Shown here piece after piece: positions 2,398-11,285 of a DNA stretch of 36,530 nt. The notes under the pieces were generated by a model, which saw nothing but the letters and a program-made list of their open reading frames with translations, searched no databases and had not been told where the DNA came from. The position numbers were made by a program, and so were the translations under genes. Origin of the DNA: Thermoplasmata archaeon (GTDB lineage Archaea > Thermoplasmatota > DTKX01 > VGTL01); assembly GCA_038851035.1 (NCBI GenBank), contig JAWCLH010000029.1:1-36530 (forward strand). The letters run 5' to 3'. Numbering within the stretch: position 1 is the stretch's first letter; every line of letters begins with the position of its first letter.

Positions 2398-2832
2398 ATG
2401 AAGGTCGCCATCATCTACCACTCTCGCTATGGCAATGGAAAAAAGTGCGTTGACTGCGTCGAAAACCTGCTGAAGAGCGGGGGCCACGAGGTTCTCGTAC
2501 TACGCGCCAACGAGTCGAACCCCTCCCAGATACCACCGGCCGACCTCTATATATTTTCCGGGGCCACGGAGGCCTTCACCATCGCCAGACCGCTCAGGAC
2601 GTATCTCAAGGCACTGCCCGTTCTACAGGGCAAAAAATACGCCCTGATCAACACCCATGCGATGATGAAGCCGAGAGCCCTTCCCAAAATGGAGAAAATC
2701 CTGTCTGGGAAAAAGGGGATGGTCAAGATCGCCGAGATTGACTTCAGAGTGGGGAAGGGCACAGATAAGGGGATGGGATTGCCCCCGGACTACGAACAGC
2801 GGCTCGCGGAGTGGGTGAAGGGGCTGGTATAG
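2398..2832 (+). CDS. Flavodoxin-like protein
   Basis: A 144-residue single-domain protein of flavodoxin size and order. Strand 1 and a phosphate-binding-type loop are at the N-terminus (MKVAIIYHSRYGNGKKCVD). Strand 3 (ADLYIFSGATEAF, about 49-61) ends in the loop that normally contacts the flavin ring, and strand 4 (KKYALINTHAM, about 79-89) follows. The FMN loop is a variant (HSRYGNGKK rather than T-x-T-G-x-T), so cofactor binding is likely but not proven. It is cytosolic, monocistronic and convergent with the aldehyde dehydrogenase; the stop codons are about 40 bases apart. The role is presumably low-potential electron transfer or flavin-dependent reduction. The redox partner is not indicated by context. 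Confidence 0.75.
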   Translation: MKVAIIYHSRYGNGKKCVDCVENLLKSGGHEVLVLRANESNPSQIPPADLYIFSGATEAFTIARPLRTYLKALPVLQGKKYALINTHAMMKPRALPKMEKILSGKKGMVKIAEIDFRVGKGTDKGMGLPPDYEQRLAEWVKGLV

Positions 2833-2869
2833 ACGCGTGCTTTAGCCGTGGTTAGACCTCTGGGCCCCA

Positions 2870-4291
2870 TCAGATTCCAATCAAGTTGAAACAGACTACC
2901 TTTGGCTCAGTCATCTCGAGAAGCGAGAACCTGACGCCCTCCCTTCCCAAGCCCGAGTACTTGACCCCGCCGAAGGGCATGGAGTCAAGTCTGTAGTCCG
3001 TGGAGTCATTTATCATCACGCCACCGCATTCGAGGGAATAGGCACCCTTGAACGCGACCTCAACGCTGCTCGTGAATATTGCGGCGTGCAGCCCATAGGG
3101 GAGCGAGTTGGCTTTGGCTATTGCCTCGTCCAGTCCCTTGACGGGGTAGAGGTTGACAACAGGTCCAAAAACCTCGTGACTGTGTATTCTTGCCTGCTCA
3201 GATACATTCTCGAGCACCGTAGGATAGTAGAGAGCCCGCTTGCGCCTTCCGCCAGCTAGAAGCCTTGCTCCCATCTTTACAGCCTCGTTGACCCACTCTT
3301 CAACCCTCTTCGCCTCCGTTTCGTTTATCATCGGCCCCATGTCGGTCTCTTCCTTCATTTTGTCTCCGACCCTGTACTTCAAGGTGCGCTGAACGAAAGC
3401 GTCCCTAAACTCTTGGTAAATCTTACTATGGATATAGATTCTCTGAACGCCGATGCAATTCTGGCCCGCCGCCCAGAATGCCCCTGAGACGCACGACTCC
3501 ACCGCTAACGATAGCTCTGCGTCCTCCCAGACAATTACCGGCGAATTGGAGCCGAGTTCCATTCCAAGCTTCTTGATTCCGGCGAGGGCGGCTATTCGCT
3601 TTCCAGCCTCGACGCCGCCAGTGAAGGAGACCATTCTGATTCTCTCATCGCTCACCATCGGCTCAGCAACTTCGGGTCCCGGACCGGTCAGCACCTGAAG
3701 GGCCTTTGGTGGAAGACCCGCTTCCAGCAGTGCCTCGGCCAGTTTCAGCGCTGAGAGGGGCGTGGCGGTCGCGGGCTTGAGGATGACCGAGTTCCCCCCG
3801 GCGAAGGCCGGGCCAAGCTTGTGCGCGACGAGATTGAGGGGGTCGTTGAACGGGGTGATGGCAAGAATAACCCCTATAGGGAATCGATAGTAGAAGCCCT
3901 TCCTTTTCTCCCCCCCGGGAAAGGAGTCGAAGGGAATCGTCTCCCCCAGAACCCGCTTTGCTTCCTCTGCTGAGACTGTCAGCGTGTTTACGCACCTTGA
4001 AGCCTCCTTTCTTGCCTCCCGAATGGTCTTGGAGCCCTCCCGGGCGATGGTTCTTGCAAAGTCCTCGAGGTTCTCCCGGACGAGCTGTGCGGTTCGGTAC
4101 AAAATATCCGCCCTTTTGTGAACCGGCAAGGAGCGCATCTCCTTGAATCCCTCAAGGGATGAGCGCAGAGCGGTCTCGATGTCCCGCCTCTCAGCCCTCG
4201 GGACGGTGTCCACGAGGGAGCCATCGTAGGGGTCGCGTACCTCGATTCTCCTCTTCCTCTCAACCCATTTGCCGTCAAGGAGCATCTTCAT
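2870..4291 (-). CDS. NAD(P)-dependent aldehyde dehydrogenase (lactaldehyde/GapN-like)
   Basis: 473 residues, the usual length of the ALDH superfamily. Catalytic features are intact: the oxyanion Asn in ITPFNDPLN (Asn149), the cofactor Lys in LKPATATPLS (Lys172), FTGG (223-226), the general base Glu in MELGSNSP (Glu245) and the nucleophile Cys in GQNC (Cys279). The TPFN...NLVAHK pattern resembles archaeal lactaldehyde and non-phosphorylating glyceraldehyde-3-phosphate dehydrogenases, but the substrate cannot be read from sequence. The ATG overlaps the homoserine dehydrogenase stop as ATGA, so the two are translationally coupled. Aspartate semialdehyde or a related aldehyde is therefore an attractive, unproven substrate. 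It is the last gene of the three-gene minus-strand operon. Confidence 0.88.
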   Translation of the reverse strand: MKMLLDGKWVERKRRIEVRDPYDGSLVDTVPRAERRDIETALRSSLEGFKEMRSLPVHKRADILYRTAQLVRENLEDFARTIAREGSKTIREARKEASRCVNTLTVSAEEAKRVLGETIPFDSFPGGEKRKGFYYRFPIGVILAITPFNDPLNLVAHKLGPAFAGGNSVILKPATATPLSALKLAEALLEAGLPPKALQVLTGPGPEVAEPMVSDERIRMVSFTGGVEAGKRIAALAGIKKLGMELGSNSPVIVWEDAELSLAVESCVSGAFWAAGQNCIGVQRIYIHSKIYQEFRDAFVQRTLKYRVGDKMKEETDMGPMINETEAKRVEEWVNEAVKMGARLLAGGRRKRALYYPTVLENVSEQARIHSHEVFGPVVNLYPVKGLDEAIAKANSLPYGLHAAIFTSSVEVAFKGAYSLECGGVMINDSTDYRLDSMPFGGVKYSGLGREGVRFSLLEMTEPKVVCFNLIGI

Positions 4292-5313
4292 AATCTGCCC
4301 CCTATATGCAGAAGGTCGTTCAGAAGGCTGTAGCCCGTCTCTCTCTTTCCGGCCCCTGGCCCGATAATCGTTACCTCGCCGAGGGCGTCGGTGGTGATGG
4401 TGAGGGCGTTCGTGGCCCCACCCACGCCCGCGAGGGGATGGGTAAGCTCGACCCGCTGGGGGCCAACGGAGGCTCTGACGATGTTCCCCTCCATCCAGAC
4501 CCTCCCTATCAGCTTGTATCGCTTCCCTTCGGCCCTGGCGGCTTTGATGTCCTCGGGCTTGATTTTCGTGATCCCCTCGCAGGGGCAGTCGAACGGCTTC
4601 AGGCGAGCGCCAAGCACGACGTTGGCGAGAATCGTGACCTTGGCCAGTGCGTCCCAGCCCAGCACGTCCGCGTCAGGAATGGCCTCGGCATATCCCAGTG
4701 CTTGGGCACTCTTGAGGGCCTCTGCGTAGGGCAAGCCCTCCTCCATTTTCGTCAGGATATAGTTGGTGGTTCCGTTAAGAATTCCACGCATCTCCGTTAT
4801 CTCGCAGCCCGCGAGGTTCTCCCGGAGGAGGTTCAGCACCGGCGTCCCACTCATCACGGTTCCCTCAAAGAGGAATTTGACGCCTTTTTTTTTCGCAAGT
4901 TTAGCAAGCTCTCGATAGTACAAGGCCACAGGTCCCTTGTTAGTGGTGACCACATGCATCCCCAGCTCGAGCGCTTTCCTAATGTGCGTGGTCGCTGGCT
5001 CACCCGTCTTTATGTCCGTGTAGGTCACCTCGACGAGGGCATCGGCCCCGGCCTCCTGAATCATCTGGAGAACGTCAAAGCCCTTCTTCGGAGCTTTTAG
5101 CTCCTCGAGCTTCCCCTTCTCGCCGGCTTTAATCAGTTTTCCGAGGTCCAGGCCGCTTGGGTCCATGACGGCCCCCTTCAACTTATCCGAAACTGCCACG
5201 ACGCTGCACTCCAGCCCATATCTCGAGGCCAGCAGCTTACTCTTGGCGTGGAGCAGCTCGGCTAGTCCCCTCCCGACGACACCAAAGCCCGCAAACACCA
5301 GCTTTAGCCTCAT
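4288..5313 (-). CDS. hom: Homoserine dehydrogenase
   Basis: Interconverts aspartate semialdehyde and homoserine with NAD(P)H, the branch point to threonine and methionine. The N-terminal Rossmann loop is GFGVVGRG. The signature TTNKGPVA and NGTTNYIL elements follow. The catalytic cluster GYAEAIPDADVLGWDALAK has the Glu, Asp and Lys (211, 222 and 226, counted from the GTG) at the same spacing as yeast Glu208/Asp219/Lys223. There is no aspartokinase or ACT domain, so this is the short monofunctional form. The frame opens with GTG at 5316, but GGAGGTGA, which overlaps the stop of the upstream gene, sits 6 bases from the ATG at 5313 and only 3 from the GTG, so ATG is preferred. The 3' end overlaps the aldehyde dehydrogenase start. 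Confidence 0.93.
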   Translation of the reverse strand: MRLKLVFAGFGVVGRGLAELLHAKSKLLASRYGLECSVVAVSDKLKGAVMDPSGLDLGKLIKAGEKGKLEELKAPKKGFDVLQMIQEAGADALVEVTYTDIKTGEPATTHIRKALELGMHVVTTNKGPVALYYRELAKLAKKKGVKFLFEGTVMSGTPVLNLLRENLAGCEITEMRGILNGTTNYILTKMEEGLPYAEALKSAQALGYAEAIPDADVLGWDALAKVTILANVVLGARLKPFDCPCEGITKIKPEDIKAARAEGKRYKLIGRVWMEGNIVRASVGPQRVELTHPLAGVGGATNALTITTDALGEVTIIGPGAGKRETGYSLLNDLLHIGGRL

Positions 5314-7561: not shown

Positions 7562-8626
7562 ATGAATTACCTGATTTTTTATTTTTCACCGAAACCATTA
7601 GATCCCGGAATCCCAATCCCCTGCGCAGTGCCCGATTACTTCCTAGTGGCTGTGAGCACGAGGCGCAACTTGGAACTCTGCCTCGAGCACTCCCACGCCG
7701 GCTTCCCCTCCACCTCGACGGGGCCGTGGCCGTTCGAGGACATATCGCCCGGGGACCAGCTGTCATTCCTCTACGGTGCGCGCGTCCGGAATATATACGA
7801 GGTGGTCTCCAAGGCCGCCTACACAGAGCCAGAGCGCCTCCCTCCCTCCTGGGAGCCGATTTATTTTCGGGGGATAAGCCGGTATGGAGGAAAGGAAGGA
7901 GCGGTCGCGCATTATTTCCCGTTCCGGCTTTTCCTGCGGCAGATTGGGGAGTTCGACGAGCCCATTATCCGGTCGGAGTTCGCGTATTTCGCCGAGGGGC
8001 TTCTCTGGAGAGGGGGCTATGGGAAGTCGCACTTCCAGGGCGACGAGCTCTCGAGGCAGAATGTGCTGCGTCTCGCCCATCCGGTAAGCGCTCCTGAGAA
8101 GCCAAAACTGGAGCTGAGCGCCCCCTCCTTCACCCCGCGCTATTCAAGAAACCGTGAAAGACCCGACGGGGTTTTTAAATTCGATGAGAAGCTCCTTCAG
8201 GCCGCAATAAGGCATCATCTGAAGAAGAATAGAGAAGCGATGAACTCATTGCTTAATTTAATCGGACTGAGCGACTGGCGCAACCGCGAGCTCGAGGTCC
8301 TCGGCGAGCGGGCGATCGCGCGCGGGTCCCCTGACCTCATTATTAAAGAGCGGAGCCTTGAGGCGCCCTCGCGGGAGGTCGTGGGCGAGGTCAAGCTGAA
8401 TTCCGCAAAAGTAGAAGATATAAACCAGCTCGCGAGCTATCTCGATGAGGTCGGGGACCGGGCCGTATCAGGTTTTATCGTATCCTCATCATTTCCGAAG
8501 GCAGTGATGAGCGAGCTAAGCCATTATCCTGAAATTCATCCGTTGATTTACGAGCATGCAGATTTCGGTGATAGGGGTCTGAGCTTCGAGGAAATAGTTG
8601 CGAGCATGAAACTGGCCGGCAGATGA
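7562..8626 (+). CDS. EVE/PUA-like domain fused to PD-(D/E)XK endonuclease
   Basis: 354 residues in two parts. Residues ~20-170 read like an EVE/YTH-type PUA fold: DYFLVAVSTRRNLELCLEH, the ISPGDQLSFLYG element, NIYEVVSKAAYTEPERLPPS (about 78-97), and a YFPFRL strand. Such domains flip out and read modified bases. After a linker (~175-205), the C-terminal part carries a PD-(D/E)XK core: SPDLI (Asp258), then GEVKL (Glu276, Lys278), then DINQLASYLDEVGD, resembling the NucS/DUF91-type nuclease arrangement. Together they suggest a modification-sensing or modification-sensitive DNA endonuclease. It lies beside a winged-helix gene and a DNA methyltransferase, which supports a role in restriction. It is probably leaderless. 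The fold assignment of each half is by eye; the nuclease motif is clearer than the EVE match. Confidence 0.72.
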   Translation: MNYLIFYFSPKPLDPGIPIPCAVPDYFLVAVSTRRNLELCLEHSHAGFPSTSTGPWPFEDISPGDQLSFLYGARVRNIYEVVSKAAYTEPERLPPSWEPIYFRGISRYGGKEGAVAHYFPFRLFLRQIGEFDEPIIRSEFAYFAEGLLWRGGYGKSHFQGDELSRQNVLRLAHPVSAPEKPKLELSAPSFTPRYSRNRERPDGVFKFDEKLLQAAIRHHLKKNREAMNSLLNLIGLSDWRNRELEVLGERAIARGSPDLIIKERSLEAPSREVVGEVKLNSAKVEDINQLASYLDEVGDRAVSGFIVSSSFPKAVMSELSHYPEIHPLIYEHADFGDRGLSFEEIVASMKLAGR

Positions 8627-8641
8627 TGCGAAGACTGGAAA

Positions 8642-8935
8642 TCACCTGGTGAGCAGGTTCAGTGCAGAAAGCGCCGTTTTTCCCTTCTCAGACAATATGA
8701 AAAGTCTGCCCTTCCTCGCCCCCGGCGTTATGTTCGTCACCAGCCCCATCCTCTCAAGGGACCTCAGCGCCCGACTCACCCTCGACCTCGCCACCGAGAG
8801 CTGCCGTGCGATCTCGGAGGGCGTGCCCGGTCCGGACCTGAGAACAGTCATAATCTGGAAGCGCAGGTATGACCTTGTGGCTCGAACGACCCAATCGTTG
8901 GCCCCGTTTCTTTCCACGATGCCGATCCGTATCAC
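8642..8935 (-). CDS. Winged-helix (ArsR/MarR-like) transcription regulator
   Basis: 97 residues. The winged helix covers ~25-85: YLRFQIMTVLRSGPGTPSEI, a recognition-helix region LSVARSRVSRALRSLERMGL, and the wing (GARKGRLFILSEKG). There is no ligand domain. It starts at GTG 8935 with GGAG directly upstream; the ATG at 8940 is followed immediately by TGA and cannot be the start. It lies between the EVE-nuclease (convergent) and the methyltransferase (divergent), with about 65 A/T-rich bases separating it from the latter. It most likely controls that shared promoter, like the controller proteins of many restriction-modification systems; this is inferred from position. Confidence 0.85.
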   Translation of the reverse strand: MIRIGIVERNGANDWVVRATRSYLRFQIMTVLRSGPGTPSEIARQLSVARSRVSRALRSLERMGLVTNITPGARKGRLFILSEKGKTALSALNLLTR

Positions 8936-8975
8936 TCCATACTTAAACTTAGTTACACTTTACTTATCGAATTTG
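8936..8975. promoter_or_regulatory. Divergent promoter/operator between wHTH and DNA methyltransferase
   Basis: An A/T-rich stretch made of repeated ACTTA/ACTT words, with an AACT-T-AGTT inverted repeat near 8946-8954, in an otherwise G/C-rich neighbourhood. It is the only space for both promoters and is a natural site for the winged-helix protein. No single TATA box stands out. Confidence 0.4.
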
Positions 8976-8999
8976 TGAACTATCTTTATCTTTCCAATC

Positions 9000-9956
9000 C
9001 TGATCATAATCGCTCCGGTCACCCTGCGCGAAGTCACCCACGCCGATTATCTCGCTTATGCGCGCGTTCATGGGGATATCCGAATTCAGGACCGCATCGG
9101 GCGGCAGCCGAGGCCAATCCCCATCGGCCGTGCCCATCATATTAAAGACCCCCAGCCCCGCAATTTCACCCTGGAGCCCTTCACAACCTGGTCCTTCCCG
9201 GACCGCGGGGAGTGGGCGACGCACCGCGGCAACTACCGCGGCAACTGGGCCCCCCAGATTCCGCGAAACCTCATCCTACGCTACACGAAACCCGGCGAGA
9301 TGGTTCTGGACCAGATGTGCGGCTCCGGAACGACGCTGGTCGAGGCCCGCCTCACCGGCCGCAATGCTATCGGCGTCGACATCCGCGAAGAGGCGATAAT
9401 GCTGACCCGAGACCGGCTGAGCTTCACCCTCCCCCGGACGCTCGACGACTCCCTCCCGCGGACAAAGCAGAGGACCTTCGTCGGCGACGCCCGCAATCTC
9501 GATAAGATAGATGACTGCTCAATTGATCTTATCGCCACCCACCCGCCCTATGCCAACATCATTCCATATTCGAAGGCGGTTCCCGGGGATCTCTCGATGG
9601 TCCACTCGATTGACGAGTTCGTGGGGCACATGAGGCTCGTCGCCCGAGAGTCCTTCCGGGTCTTGAAGCCGGATGGCTACTGCGGAATTCTCATTGGTGA
9701 CACCCGCAGGCACAGGCACTACGTCCCCATCGCCTACAGGACCCTCGGCGCCTTTCTCTCCGAGGGCTTCGTTCTACGTGAGGACATCATCAAGCACCAA
9801 TGGCAGTGCAAGTCCACGCCCTACTGGGTGAAGAAGTCGCTCCAGTGGAACTTTTTAATGATAATGCACGAGCACCTCTTCGTTTTCAGGAAGCCCGCGG
9901 AGGGCGAGGACACTAAAAAACTCAGGGATAGCATGGCATGGCAGGGCGTGGGGTAG
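9000..9956 (+). CDS. DNA methyltransferase, N4-cytosine/N6-adenine beta-like class
   Basis: S-adenosylmethionine motif I is MCGSGTTLVEA and the catalytic motif IV is THPPYANIIPYS (a TSPPY/DPPY-type loop); a later RVLKPDGYCGILIGD strand completes the fold. The frame is clearly coding well upstream of the first ATG (9300): REVTHADYLAYARVHGD (9030-9080), RGNWAPQIPRNLILRYTKPG (the standard run-up to motif I). It is open back to the TGA at 8976. No ATG, GTG or TTG occurs in frame between 8979 and 9300, so the start is non-canonical (CTG at 9000 is given as a marker) or was lost. If translation began at 9300, 218 residues with motif I would remain. Presumed to protect host DNA from, or mark it for, the neighbouring nuclease. 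The modified base and site are unknown. Confidence 0.8.
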   Translation: MIIIAPVTLREVTHADYLAYARVHGDIRIQDRIGRQPRPIPIGRAHHIKDPQPRNFTLEPFTTWSFPDRGEWATHRGNYRGNWAPQIPRNLILRYTKPGEMVLDQMCGSGTTLVEARLTGRNAIGVDIREEAIMLTRDRLSFTLPRTLDDSLPRTKQRTFVGDARNLDKIDDCSIDLIATHPPYANIIPYSKAVPGDLSMVHSIDEFVGHMRLVARESFRVLKPDGYCGILIGDTRRHRHYVPIAYRTLGAFLSEGFVLREDIIKHQWQCKSTPYWVKKSLQWNFLMIMHEHLFVFRKPAEGEDTKKLRDSMAWQGVG

Positions 9957-9962
9957 CCAGCT

Positions 9963-11285
9963 TCAAACCTCTCTCGGCACGTCTATCCTCATCCCCATCA
10001 TCGTCGGCGAGGGAATCAATATCTTCTTCCTCACGGCGAGCTGGACCATGTGCTCCCTGAAGGCCTGCGGCAGGTCCGCGATCATGGGCTCCCCGAACTT
10101 GCCGAGGTGGAGGGCGAGGTGGTAGCGCGTCTGGGAACTCCTCCTGAACGGAGGCAGGCGCCTGAGCGACTCCCTGAAAGCCCTCCAGGCCTCCTCCGGA
10201 TAGGGGTCGGAGGGGTCGTCGGGGTTGATGGCCTCCCAGCGGCCGGAGGCGGGCCAGTAGCAGGTGAGGGTTCCGACCTCTTCCTTTACGAGCGCTCCGG
10301 CCCCGAGTGCCCGCTCAATTATGCTCTTCGCCTGGAGCCCCCTCCCCGGAAAGAGCTCGCGTAGCTTTGCCCCGATTCTCTCCTCGGTTGGGTAGTGGTT
10401 CTCGCGCTTGAGCGCCTCGAGAGCAGCCTCGAGAGCGGTTCCATCCTCCCTAATGTCCGGAGCCCTCTCCGGAACCTGCTGCGGCGCCGGGGCCTTTGGC
10501 TCGACGGCGGGGGGCGTCTGTGCCTCGCCCTTCAGCGCCGATACCTCCTCGACGAGCTTTCGCGTGGCCTCGAGATAGAGAGGGGTAGTTCCGTGGAGCT
10601 TGACATACCCCTCCGTCTCCAGCGACCTCGCGAGCTCCTTAGGCCTTCGAAGGCCGAAGCGTCTGCAGAAGTCGCCGTCGAACTGGTTATGCAGGTAGCC
10701 CGCCACGCGGGAGAACGGAATTCTGGACCCCTCGTTGACGGCTGGCTCCAGTGAGGCGACGAAGCTGAAAAATGCCTCGAGCAGGTCCCGGCCGGCCTCC
10801 GGCAGACCCTGCGCAAGGGCCGCCTCCGCTCCCCCGTCCTCCTTCGAGTGGGTTTGTATCGTTTCTAGTGGGGGGCTGAATACGAGCTCGTCGATGTCAT
10901 GGAATGAGAAATGGACAAATGTTATCCTGGGCACCACGCCCTTTGCGCTCTTCACCGGAAATAGGTCATTGGTAAGAATATACACGGTCTCGCCCTGCTC
11001 CTGCCTCTTGAGCGCTAGCTGAATCAGGAAGTCGTCGGCCTCGCGCCCCGCAGGGGCCTGGGTCACAAGCCCGCTCTGAATCATTTCCTCGAGCCTCTCC
11101 GGCTCGTCAATCACGTGCCTGAGGCTCGCGTCCGCGACCACGCCCACGCGGAAGGGGTGCTTCCGGAGCTCCTCAAGCACCCTGGCGAGCAGGTGCATCC
11201 GCGGGCCCTTCAGCAGGCCCCCTCCGTAGGCGACGTTGCTGGCGTCGACCAAGACTATCGGCGGCTTCTCTGCGGACTCCGGCAA
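9963..11285 (-). CDS. NYN (PIN-like) ribonuclease domain protein with LOTUS-like domain
   Basis: 440 residues. Residues ~8-125 form a NYN/Zc3h12a-like nuclease: IVLVDASNVAYGGG (Asp14, Asn17), VVADASLRHVID (Asp52), AGREADDFLIQLA (Asp84/85) and ILTNDLFPV (Asn106, Asp107), the acidic set expected for metal-dependent RNA cleavage. Residues ~168-240 (IPFSRVAGYLHNQF, FGLRRPKELARSLETEGYV) resemble an OST-HTH/LOTUS winged helix, which binds RNA in NYN-LOTUS proteins. A Pro/Ala linker (~255-280) leads to a C-terminal helical region (~285-440) I cannot assign. The start is TTG at 11285 with GGAGGGG four bases upstream. A TATA box at 11315-11323 (minus) fits a leader of about ten bases. Likely a cytosolic RNA-turnover enzyme. 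Confidence 0.78.
   Translation of the reverse strand: MPESAEKPPIVLVDASNVAYGGGLLKGPRMHLLARVLEELRKHPFRVGVVADASLRHVIDEPERLEEMIQSGLVTQAPAGREADDFLIQLALKRQEQGETVYILTNDLFPVKSAKGVVPRITFVHFSFHDIDELVFSPPLETIQTHSKEDGGAEAALAQGLPEAGRDLLEAFFSFVASLEPAVNEGSRIPFSRVAGYLHNQFDGDFCRRFGLRRPKELARSLETEGYVKLHGTTPLYLEATRKLVEEVSALKGEAQTPPAVEPKAPAPQQVPERAPDIREDGTALEAALEALKRENHYPTEERIGAKLRELFPGRGLQAKSIIERALGAGALVKEEVGTLTCYWPASGRWEAINPDDPSDPYPEEAWRAFRESLRRLPPFRRSSQTRYHLALHLGKFGEPMIADLPQAFREHMVQLAVRKKILIPSPTMMGMRIDVPREV

Follow-up and report, generated by a model that had tools for sequence, protein, structure and literature searches.

Why would a nuclease that appears to act on modified DNA lie beside a gene for a DNA methyltransferase? 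The question is raised by a stretch of 36,530 nucleotides from a Thermoplasmata archaeon (GenBank assembly GCA_038851035.1, contig JAWCLH010000029.1; hereafter the window), in which a nuclease gene, a small winged-helix (wHTH) gene and a methyltransferase gene follow one another. An earlier note, made from the sequence alone, rightly saw a paradox in a modification-dependent nuclease paired in this way and proposed that the three genes form one defence system. Broken restriction-modification (R-M) genes beside relatives of the nuclease, and the distribution of these genes across genomes, suggest conflict rather than partnership. We consider it fairly likely that the window nuclease is a divergent stand-alone type IV enzyme that came to lie beside an R-M-type module through conflict or replacement.

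Gene layout of the window

All three genes are real open reading frames, as supported by the ORF list, Pfam and PADLOC (Table 1). Their order (nuclease forward, wHTH reverse, methyltransferase forward) does not make one operon. As the earlier note had described, the small wHTH gene lies between the other two and is divergent from the methyltransferase, with starts at 8935 and 9024. The gene directly past the methyltransferase (9963-11285, minus strand) encodes an NYN/Zc3h12a-like RNase domain (PF11977, 1.8e-8) at the N-terminus of its product, which also has a weak OHA match.

Table 1 Features of the window and of related loci. Coordinates without a locus name refer to the window.
Feature	Position	Strand	Evidence
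Nuclease gene, 354 aa	7562..8626	+	ORF; 41 further unique homologous loci; AF2 model
N-terminal YTH/EVE-like (PUA superfamily) domain, residues ~24-175	7631..8086	+	Foldseek and conservation
C-terminal PD-(D/E)XK nuclease domain, NucS/EndoMS-like; D258, E276, K278, Q289	8174..8623	+	NucS_C matches, Foldseek, invariant columns
Winged-helix gene, 97 aa, ArsR/MarR-like	8642..8935	-	Pfam HTH_5/ArsR 1.4e-9
AT-rich divergent intergenic region, wHTH/methyltransferase	8936..9023	.	Sequence
N6/N4 DNA methyltransferase, DpnII-associated type, frame intact	9024..9956	+	HMM positions 15-317 of 317
Gene of ~81 aa	L061:3494-3739; L055:3138-3419; also L082, L086, L091, L093, L096, others
Protein of ~200 aa (FQIWL)	L046:8872-9480; L116:2818-3405; L117:157-774; L120:652-1260; L121:653-1261
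Broken R-M genes beside the nuclease	L055, L057, L058, L061, L063, L068, L071, L082, L086, L089, L092, L096

A predicted YTH-like reader fused to a NucS-like nuclease

As a single sequence, the window nuclease retrieved almost no family matches (none in Pfam), and a pattern scan of genome contigs with this one protein gave no match. Relatives were obtained first from a genome search within the phylum, and their alignment was then used as the query; this search (A1) returned 40 nuclease loci in named archaea and bacteria. Besides the window, the family comprises 41 further unique loci from archaea and bacteria, with many of the taxa apparently thermophiles, and no homologues were detected in the phage, plasmid or viral collections searched. 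The term archaeal defence type, as used in the earlier note, is therefore too narrow, since the family is also bacterial. The first ~22 residues of the window protein are missing in homologues and disordered in the AF2 model, and the start used by the family may be the GTG at 7628, which would give a protein of 332 aa.

A model built with AF2 from a 32-sequence alignment that included the window (mean pLDDT 89.6, pTM 0.88) resolves two domains, a PUA-type reader and a NucS-like PD-(D/E)XK nuclease, in agreement with the base-reading PUA-type N-terminus proposed earlier. In Foldseek searches against the PDB, the YTH domains of YTHDC1, YTHDF2 and Mmi1 made up most of the top 50 matches to the reader domain, with TM-scores by target length of about 0.5-0.65, and one EVE entry (1zce) was also found. 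The predicted fold is thus a PUA-superfamily fold nearest to YTH domains, with no sequence-level match to the YTH chains. The modification-dependent enzymes MspJI and AspBHI were also among the Foldseek matches, while matches of the reader domain to Pin1 and surfactant proteins were regarded as chance. The C-terminal part matched EndoMS/NucS (5gke and 2vld), and the NucS_C profile matched 30 of the 32 family members, at best with 1e-6. Asp258, Glu276 and Lys278 lie where the earlier note had placed them and, together with Q289, are invariant across the 32 sequences, window included; the same is true of W56 and W97 of the reader domain, which are candidate pocket residues.

Compared with known enzymes, the window nuclease fits a stand-alone, modification-dependent (type IV) enzyme. 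Like type IV enzymes with PUA readers, it combines in one chain a predicted PUA-superfamily reader domain and a nuclease with an intact active site, and it has no obligatory cognate methyltransferase, 28 of the 41 loci lacking an R-M gene within 1.5 kb. NucS/EndoMS shares the C-terminal nuclease domain but has an N-terminal dimerisation domain where the window nuclease carries a YTH/EVE-like reader, so that by architecture it is no mismatch endonuclease; the window protein scores 11.7 bits against the NCBIfam NucS model, for which the cut-off is 216. DpnI, which reads through a winged helix together with its PD-ExK domain and has no YTH domain, is also distinct, as the model of the window nuclease contains no winged helix.

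The earlier note had suggested that the cassette could be an undescribed defence type. The available portions of Bell et al. 2020 (PMC7641849) already note archaeal YTH-like domains fused to PD-(D/E)XK nucleases, the architecture of the window nuclease, and predict that they restrict modified DNA; those portions describe no bacterial members, no small partner gene and no placement in broken DpnII-type genes. In the literature that was covered, which is incomplete, no account was found of this family lying within broken DpnII-type R-M genes.

The window copy is the most diverged member of its family, forming the longest branch in the nuclease tree and differing at 19 of the 89 columns conserved in >=29 of the other 31 members. 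Given this divergence, it may have a different target or may be decaying. Nothing element-like was found among repeats around the gene.

The methyltransferase and winged-helix genes as a module

The methyltransferase, which ends at 9956 on the plus strand, matches Pfam N6_N4_Mtase (3e-23) and the PADLOC model MTase_II (PDLC03376, 1e-78). Its start had been placed at the ATG at 9300, which is wrong, as the frame is open from 8979 and the conserved N-terminus (motif X region), with the stretch that runs from REVTH to the motif-I region, precedes 9300. This stretch must be coding, because comparison with an 80%-identical gene in genome G001 gives a dN of 0.28 and a dS of 1.37, with differences mostly at third positions, and the frame is intact and under purifying selection. 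Upstream of 9300 the frame contains no ATG, GTG or TTG, and the position of the homologues' start methionine is occupied by the CTG at 9024, which may be a rare CTG start, a start-codon loss or an assembly error. A sigma-70 promoter scan, which has no meaning in an archaeon, returned nothing.

Homologues of the methyltransferase adjoin DpnII genes (PF04556) in G005, G057, G370, G405 and G427 and Dam-like D12 genes in G005, G057, G064, G115 and G182, and this occurrence in an operon with or beside DpnII and D12 genes places the window enzyme in the DpnII-associated methyltransferase family. A related wHTH gene lies directly upstream of, and co-directional with, the methyltransferase in G001, G005, G233 and G263, is separated from it by a 185-aa gene in G031, and is fused to it in G059 as one 412-aa open frame (L040:10539-11777). 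Judged by these arrangements, METHYLTRANSFERASE and the wHTH gene are a recurrent R-M-type module, because the two are adjacent or fused in other genomes; in the window, the wHTH gene is turned around relative to its co-directional homologues. The earlier note had likened the control layout to that of C-protein R-M systems, though with an ArsR/MarR-like protein. Across these six genomes the wHTH pairs with the methyltransferase, and as it belongs to that gene its presence is no sign that the nuclease is under its control; the regulator of C-protein R-M systems is an Xre-type HTH_3 protein that controls the restriction gene, whereas here it is ArsR/MarR-like.

Several other genes accompany the module in these genomes. 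In G001, the nearest relative, the wHTH-methyltransferase pair is divergent from a 370-aa protein (L037:4321-5433) with a weak NucS_C match, which may be a different candidate restriction gene; TALE matches to this neighbour were dismissed as chance. The 185-aa protein between the two genes in G031 (L044:9879-10436) looks like a PD-(D/E)XK protein and has no Pfam match. A protein of ~200 aa (FQIWL...FRPNHLR.LIDL) recurs beside methyltransferase and D12 genes and is a possible cognate restriction enzyme of an unfamiliar family. G005 carries a row of methyltransferase copies (L036:5247-11804), the first complete and the later ones broken, which adjoins DpnII and a Dam-like gene.

Broken R-M genes beside the nuclease

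Both flanks of 46 nuclease loci, representing 41 unique genomes with the window excluded, were scanned in six frames with HMMs for the methyltransferase, D12 and DpnII. R-M genes matched within 1.5 kb of the nuclease at 13 of the 41 unique loci, compared with a single match in 303 kb farther out (1.5-7.5 kb), an excess with a P of ~3e-8 when an upper-bound far (background) rate is used. This distance profile rejects a general defence-island effect, and the wider locus set overturned the view, drawn from six Thermoplasmatota loci, that the nuclease is never near R-M genes. The R-M pieces are broken in 12 of the 13 loci (Table 1), the thirteenth (L083) being the one where the methyltransferase is intact, though distant. 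Ten junctions, spread over nine loci, place the end of R-M homology no more than 14 nt from the start or stop of the nuclease or from the stop of a small partner gene. Breakpoints fall at HMM positions 50, 201, 251 and 280 of the methyltransferase, 39 and 132 of D12, and 86 and 160 of DpnII, and site-specific homing was set aside since they differ between loci. Shared breakpoints in L063/L089 and in L082/L096 probably reflect one event each, and L086 may derive from the same event as L082/L096.

These neighbourhoods bear on two other readings of the window. If the nuclease and methyltransferase arrived independently in a region of gene turnover, they would be functionally unrelated neighbours there; consistent with this, the genes lie on alternating strands, no recognisable R-M breakpoint was found on the 5' side of the window nuclease, and the GC3 of the nuclease is 0.67 compared with 0.74-0.81 in neighbouring genes. 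Chance, however, falls far short of explaining why, across the family, R-M genes cluster at 0-1.5 kb from the nuclease and not at 1.5-7.5 kb, and although this is no proof of a relation in the window genome itself, we regard independent arrival as unlikely. The system proposed in the earlier note would make the nuclease a restriction subunit whose activity the methyltransferase gates or blocks and which is under the control of the wHTH; it draws on the adjacency in the window and on the putative PD-(D/E)XK proteins that adjoin the wHTH-methyltransferase pair in G001 and G031, where a restriction gene would be expected. It is nevertheless very improbable: no trio is present at any of the 41 further unique loci of the nuclease, and intact nuclease homologues mostly have no nearby methyltransferase or a broken one, so that a nuclease dependent on protection could not survive. 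Nor do the 41 further loci contain a conserved intact methyltransferase partner, and the nuclease does not have the conserved linkage with an intact cognate methyltransferase that characterises type II R-M systems.

One replacement that cuts both R-M genes

The clearest view of such a break comes from two colinear loci, L098 from a WOR-3 bin, which has an intact overlapping methyltransferase-DpnII operon, and L061 from Calescamantes. Positions 1792-2519 of L061 are 81% identical to 1480-2207 of L098 (reverse complement), and positions 3748-4412 are 85% identical to 2657-3321 (reverse complement). Between them, 1228 bp of L061 stand in place of 449 bp across the methyltransferase/DpnII junction of L098. 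The 449 bp comprise the final ~70 codons of the methyltransferase and the initial ~83 of DpnII; the 1228 bp hold the nuclease gene and an 81-aa gene that begins before the nuclease frame has ended, so that start and stop overlap. One replacement thus cuts both genes in L061. The double break fits what a conflict would demand, because a methyl-dependent nuclease would presumably be shut out as long as the methyltransferase is active, and loss of the methyltransferase alone would presumably be barred by a DpnII that is still active.

A gene of ~81 aa follows the nuclease in about 14 loci, in several of which it overlaps the nuclease stop, and is absent from the window. It matched no Pfam, NCBIfam or PHROG family and its model had no significant fold match; its product is possibly a partner or inhibitor of the nuclease.

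Distribution of complete genes across genomes

The comparison took in genomes that carry a close homologue of the methyltransferase (E <= 1e-40), leaving out G055 (contig edge). Of the six such genomes whose nuclease is intact, two (the window and G405) have a complete methyltransferase, as do all three whose nuclease is broken (G038, G424, G427) and 17 of the 18 that lack a nuclease. The Fisher p of 0.004-0.006 is indicative only, because the groups are small and the controls without nuclease are all Thermoplasmatota while the nuclease-bearing genomes come from many phyla. A complete DpnII gene is present only in G405 among the 42 nuclease-bearing genomes, and G000 has neither a DpnII nor a Dam-like gene. 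Two exceptions have an intact nuclease alongside intact methyltransferases: G405, a WOR-3 bin with an intact methyltransferase-DpnII operon, where nuclease and operon lie on separate ~5-kb contigs of one bin that is possibly a strain mix, and G393, with three intact Dam-like D12 genes whose specificity is not assigned. The earlier note had held that its reading would fall if homologues of the nuclease never co-occurred with the methyltransferase; for a working methyltransferase, the result largely goes against that reading, adjacent methyltransferase or DpnII genes being almost always broken.

The coexistence of intact genes in G405 could also point to a helper role, with both enzymes active, compatible through different bases or motifs, and the nuclease removing cells or DNA with rival methylation and thereby protecting the resident methyltransferase. 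Such a role would suit the window methyltransferase, with its intact frame under purifying selection, and the window nuclease, which as the most diverged copy could have changed specificity, and it has a precedent in the argument that McrBC inserted in type I loci protects the resident methyltransferase (PMC2614495). However, a helper would not need the R-M genes beside the rest of the family to be broken, and the window methyltransferase has no canonical start codon; we consider this role doubtful.

A proposed conflict between nuclease and methyltransferase

The nuclease probably lies beside the methyltransferase as its enemy rather than its partner, because in its relatives it repeatedly sits inside wrecked methylation systems. 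In the conflict that we propose, the YTH-like domain would flip out and read a modified adenine, and the NucS-like PD-(D/E)XK domain of the same chain would then cut the DNA. The mark is most likely N6-methyladenine, to judge by the YTH fold, the recurrent link to DpnII and Dam-like genes, and the N-terminal YTH domain of Thermococcus gammatolerans McrB (PDB 6P0F), which binds 6mA DNA (PMC12707154, PMC7641849). That domain is likewise archaeal and guides a type IV nuclease, but it is fused to an NTP-dependent McrB motor with a separate McrC, whereas the window family is a direct NucS-like fusion without a motor. A cell could not maintain both a working nuclease and a methyltransferase making its target, and loss of the methyltransferase alone would expose it to DpnII; viable arrivals of the nuclease would be those that break both genes, as seen in L061.

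Known systems offer partial parallels. DpnI and DpnII of Streptococcus pneumoniae are alternative cassettes (PMC3573125, PMC12707154), in which one locus houses either a nuclease dependent on methylated GATC or a GATC R-M system, each excluding the other. Those, however, are clean allelic cassettes, whereas the nuclease family here lies among truncated R-M remnants in many phyla. That cells die when a methyl-specific nuclease and a methyltransferase come together has its experimental precedent in McrBC (PMC2614495), and the conflict between PcaRCI and PcaRCII was settled by silencing (PMC8989522). Both set a methyltransferase against a methylation-dependent nuclease in one genome, but there coexistence is achieved by differing specificity or nuclease silencing, while here the R-M genes are physically broken.

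In the window, the nuclease would have settled against a wHTH-methyltransferase module like those serving DpnII-type nucleases. One way out of the conflict there may be a methyltransferase that is silent or weak, in keeping with its lack of a canonical start; the other may be a change in the specificity of the nuclease, so that the product of the methyltransferase is not recognised any more. We infer the cutting activity, the lethality of co-expression and the silence of the window methyltransferase. More tentatively, the nuclease gene, often accompanied by the 81-aa gene, might be a mobile cassette that, in archaea and bacteria alike, takes over DpnII-type R-M operons and has its own start and stop codons as junctions. 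A single event would then disrupt both R-M genes and thereby render the genome safe for the cassette; on this view the window would be a late or divergent stage in which the methyltransferase was disarmed by start-codon loss. The simplest way to account for junctions near coding ends would be selection among illegitimate recombinants, the most novel a dedicated mobility mechanism.

A methyl-DNA nuclease beside a methyltransferase is thus turned from a paradox into a testable conflict, displayed by many broken R-M loci. The family is an uncharacterised, motor-free, single-chain nuclease that is likely to depend on adenine methylation, of which several members are probably thermostable, and it is of interest both for restriction biology and as a reagent. 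It also supplies natural cases of a single gene replacement that eliminates the two halves of an R-M system.
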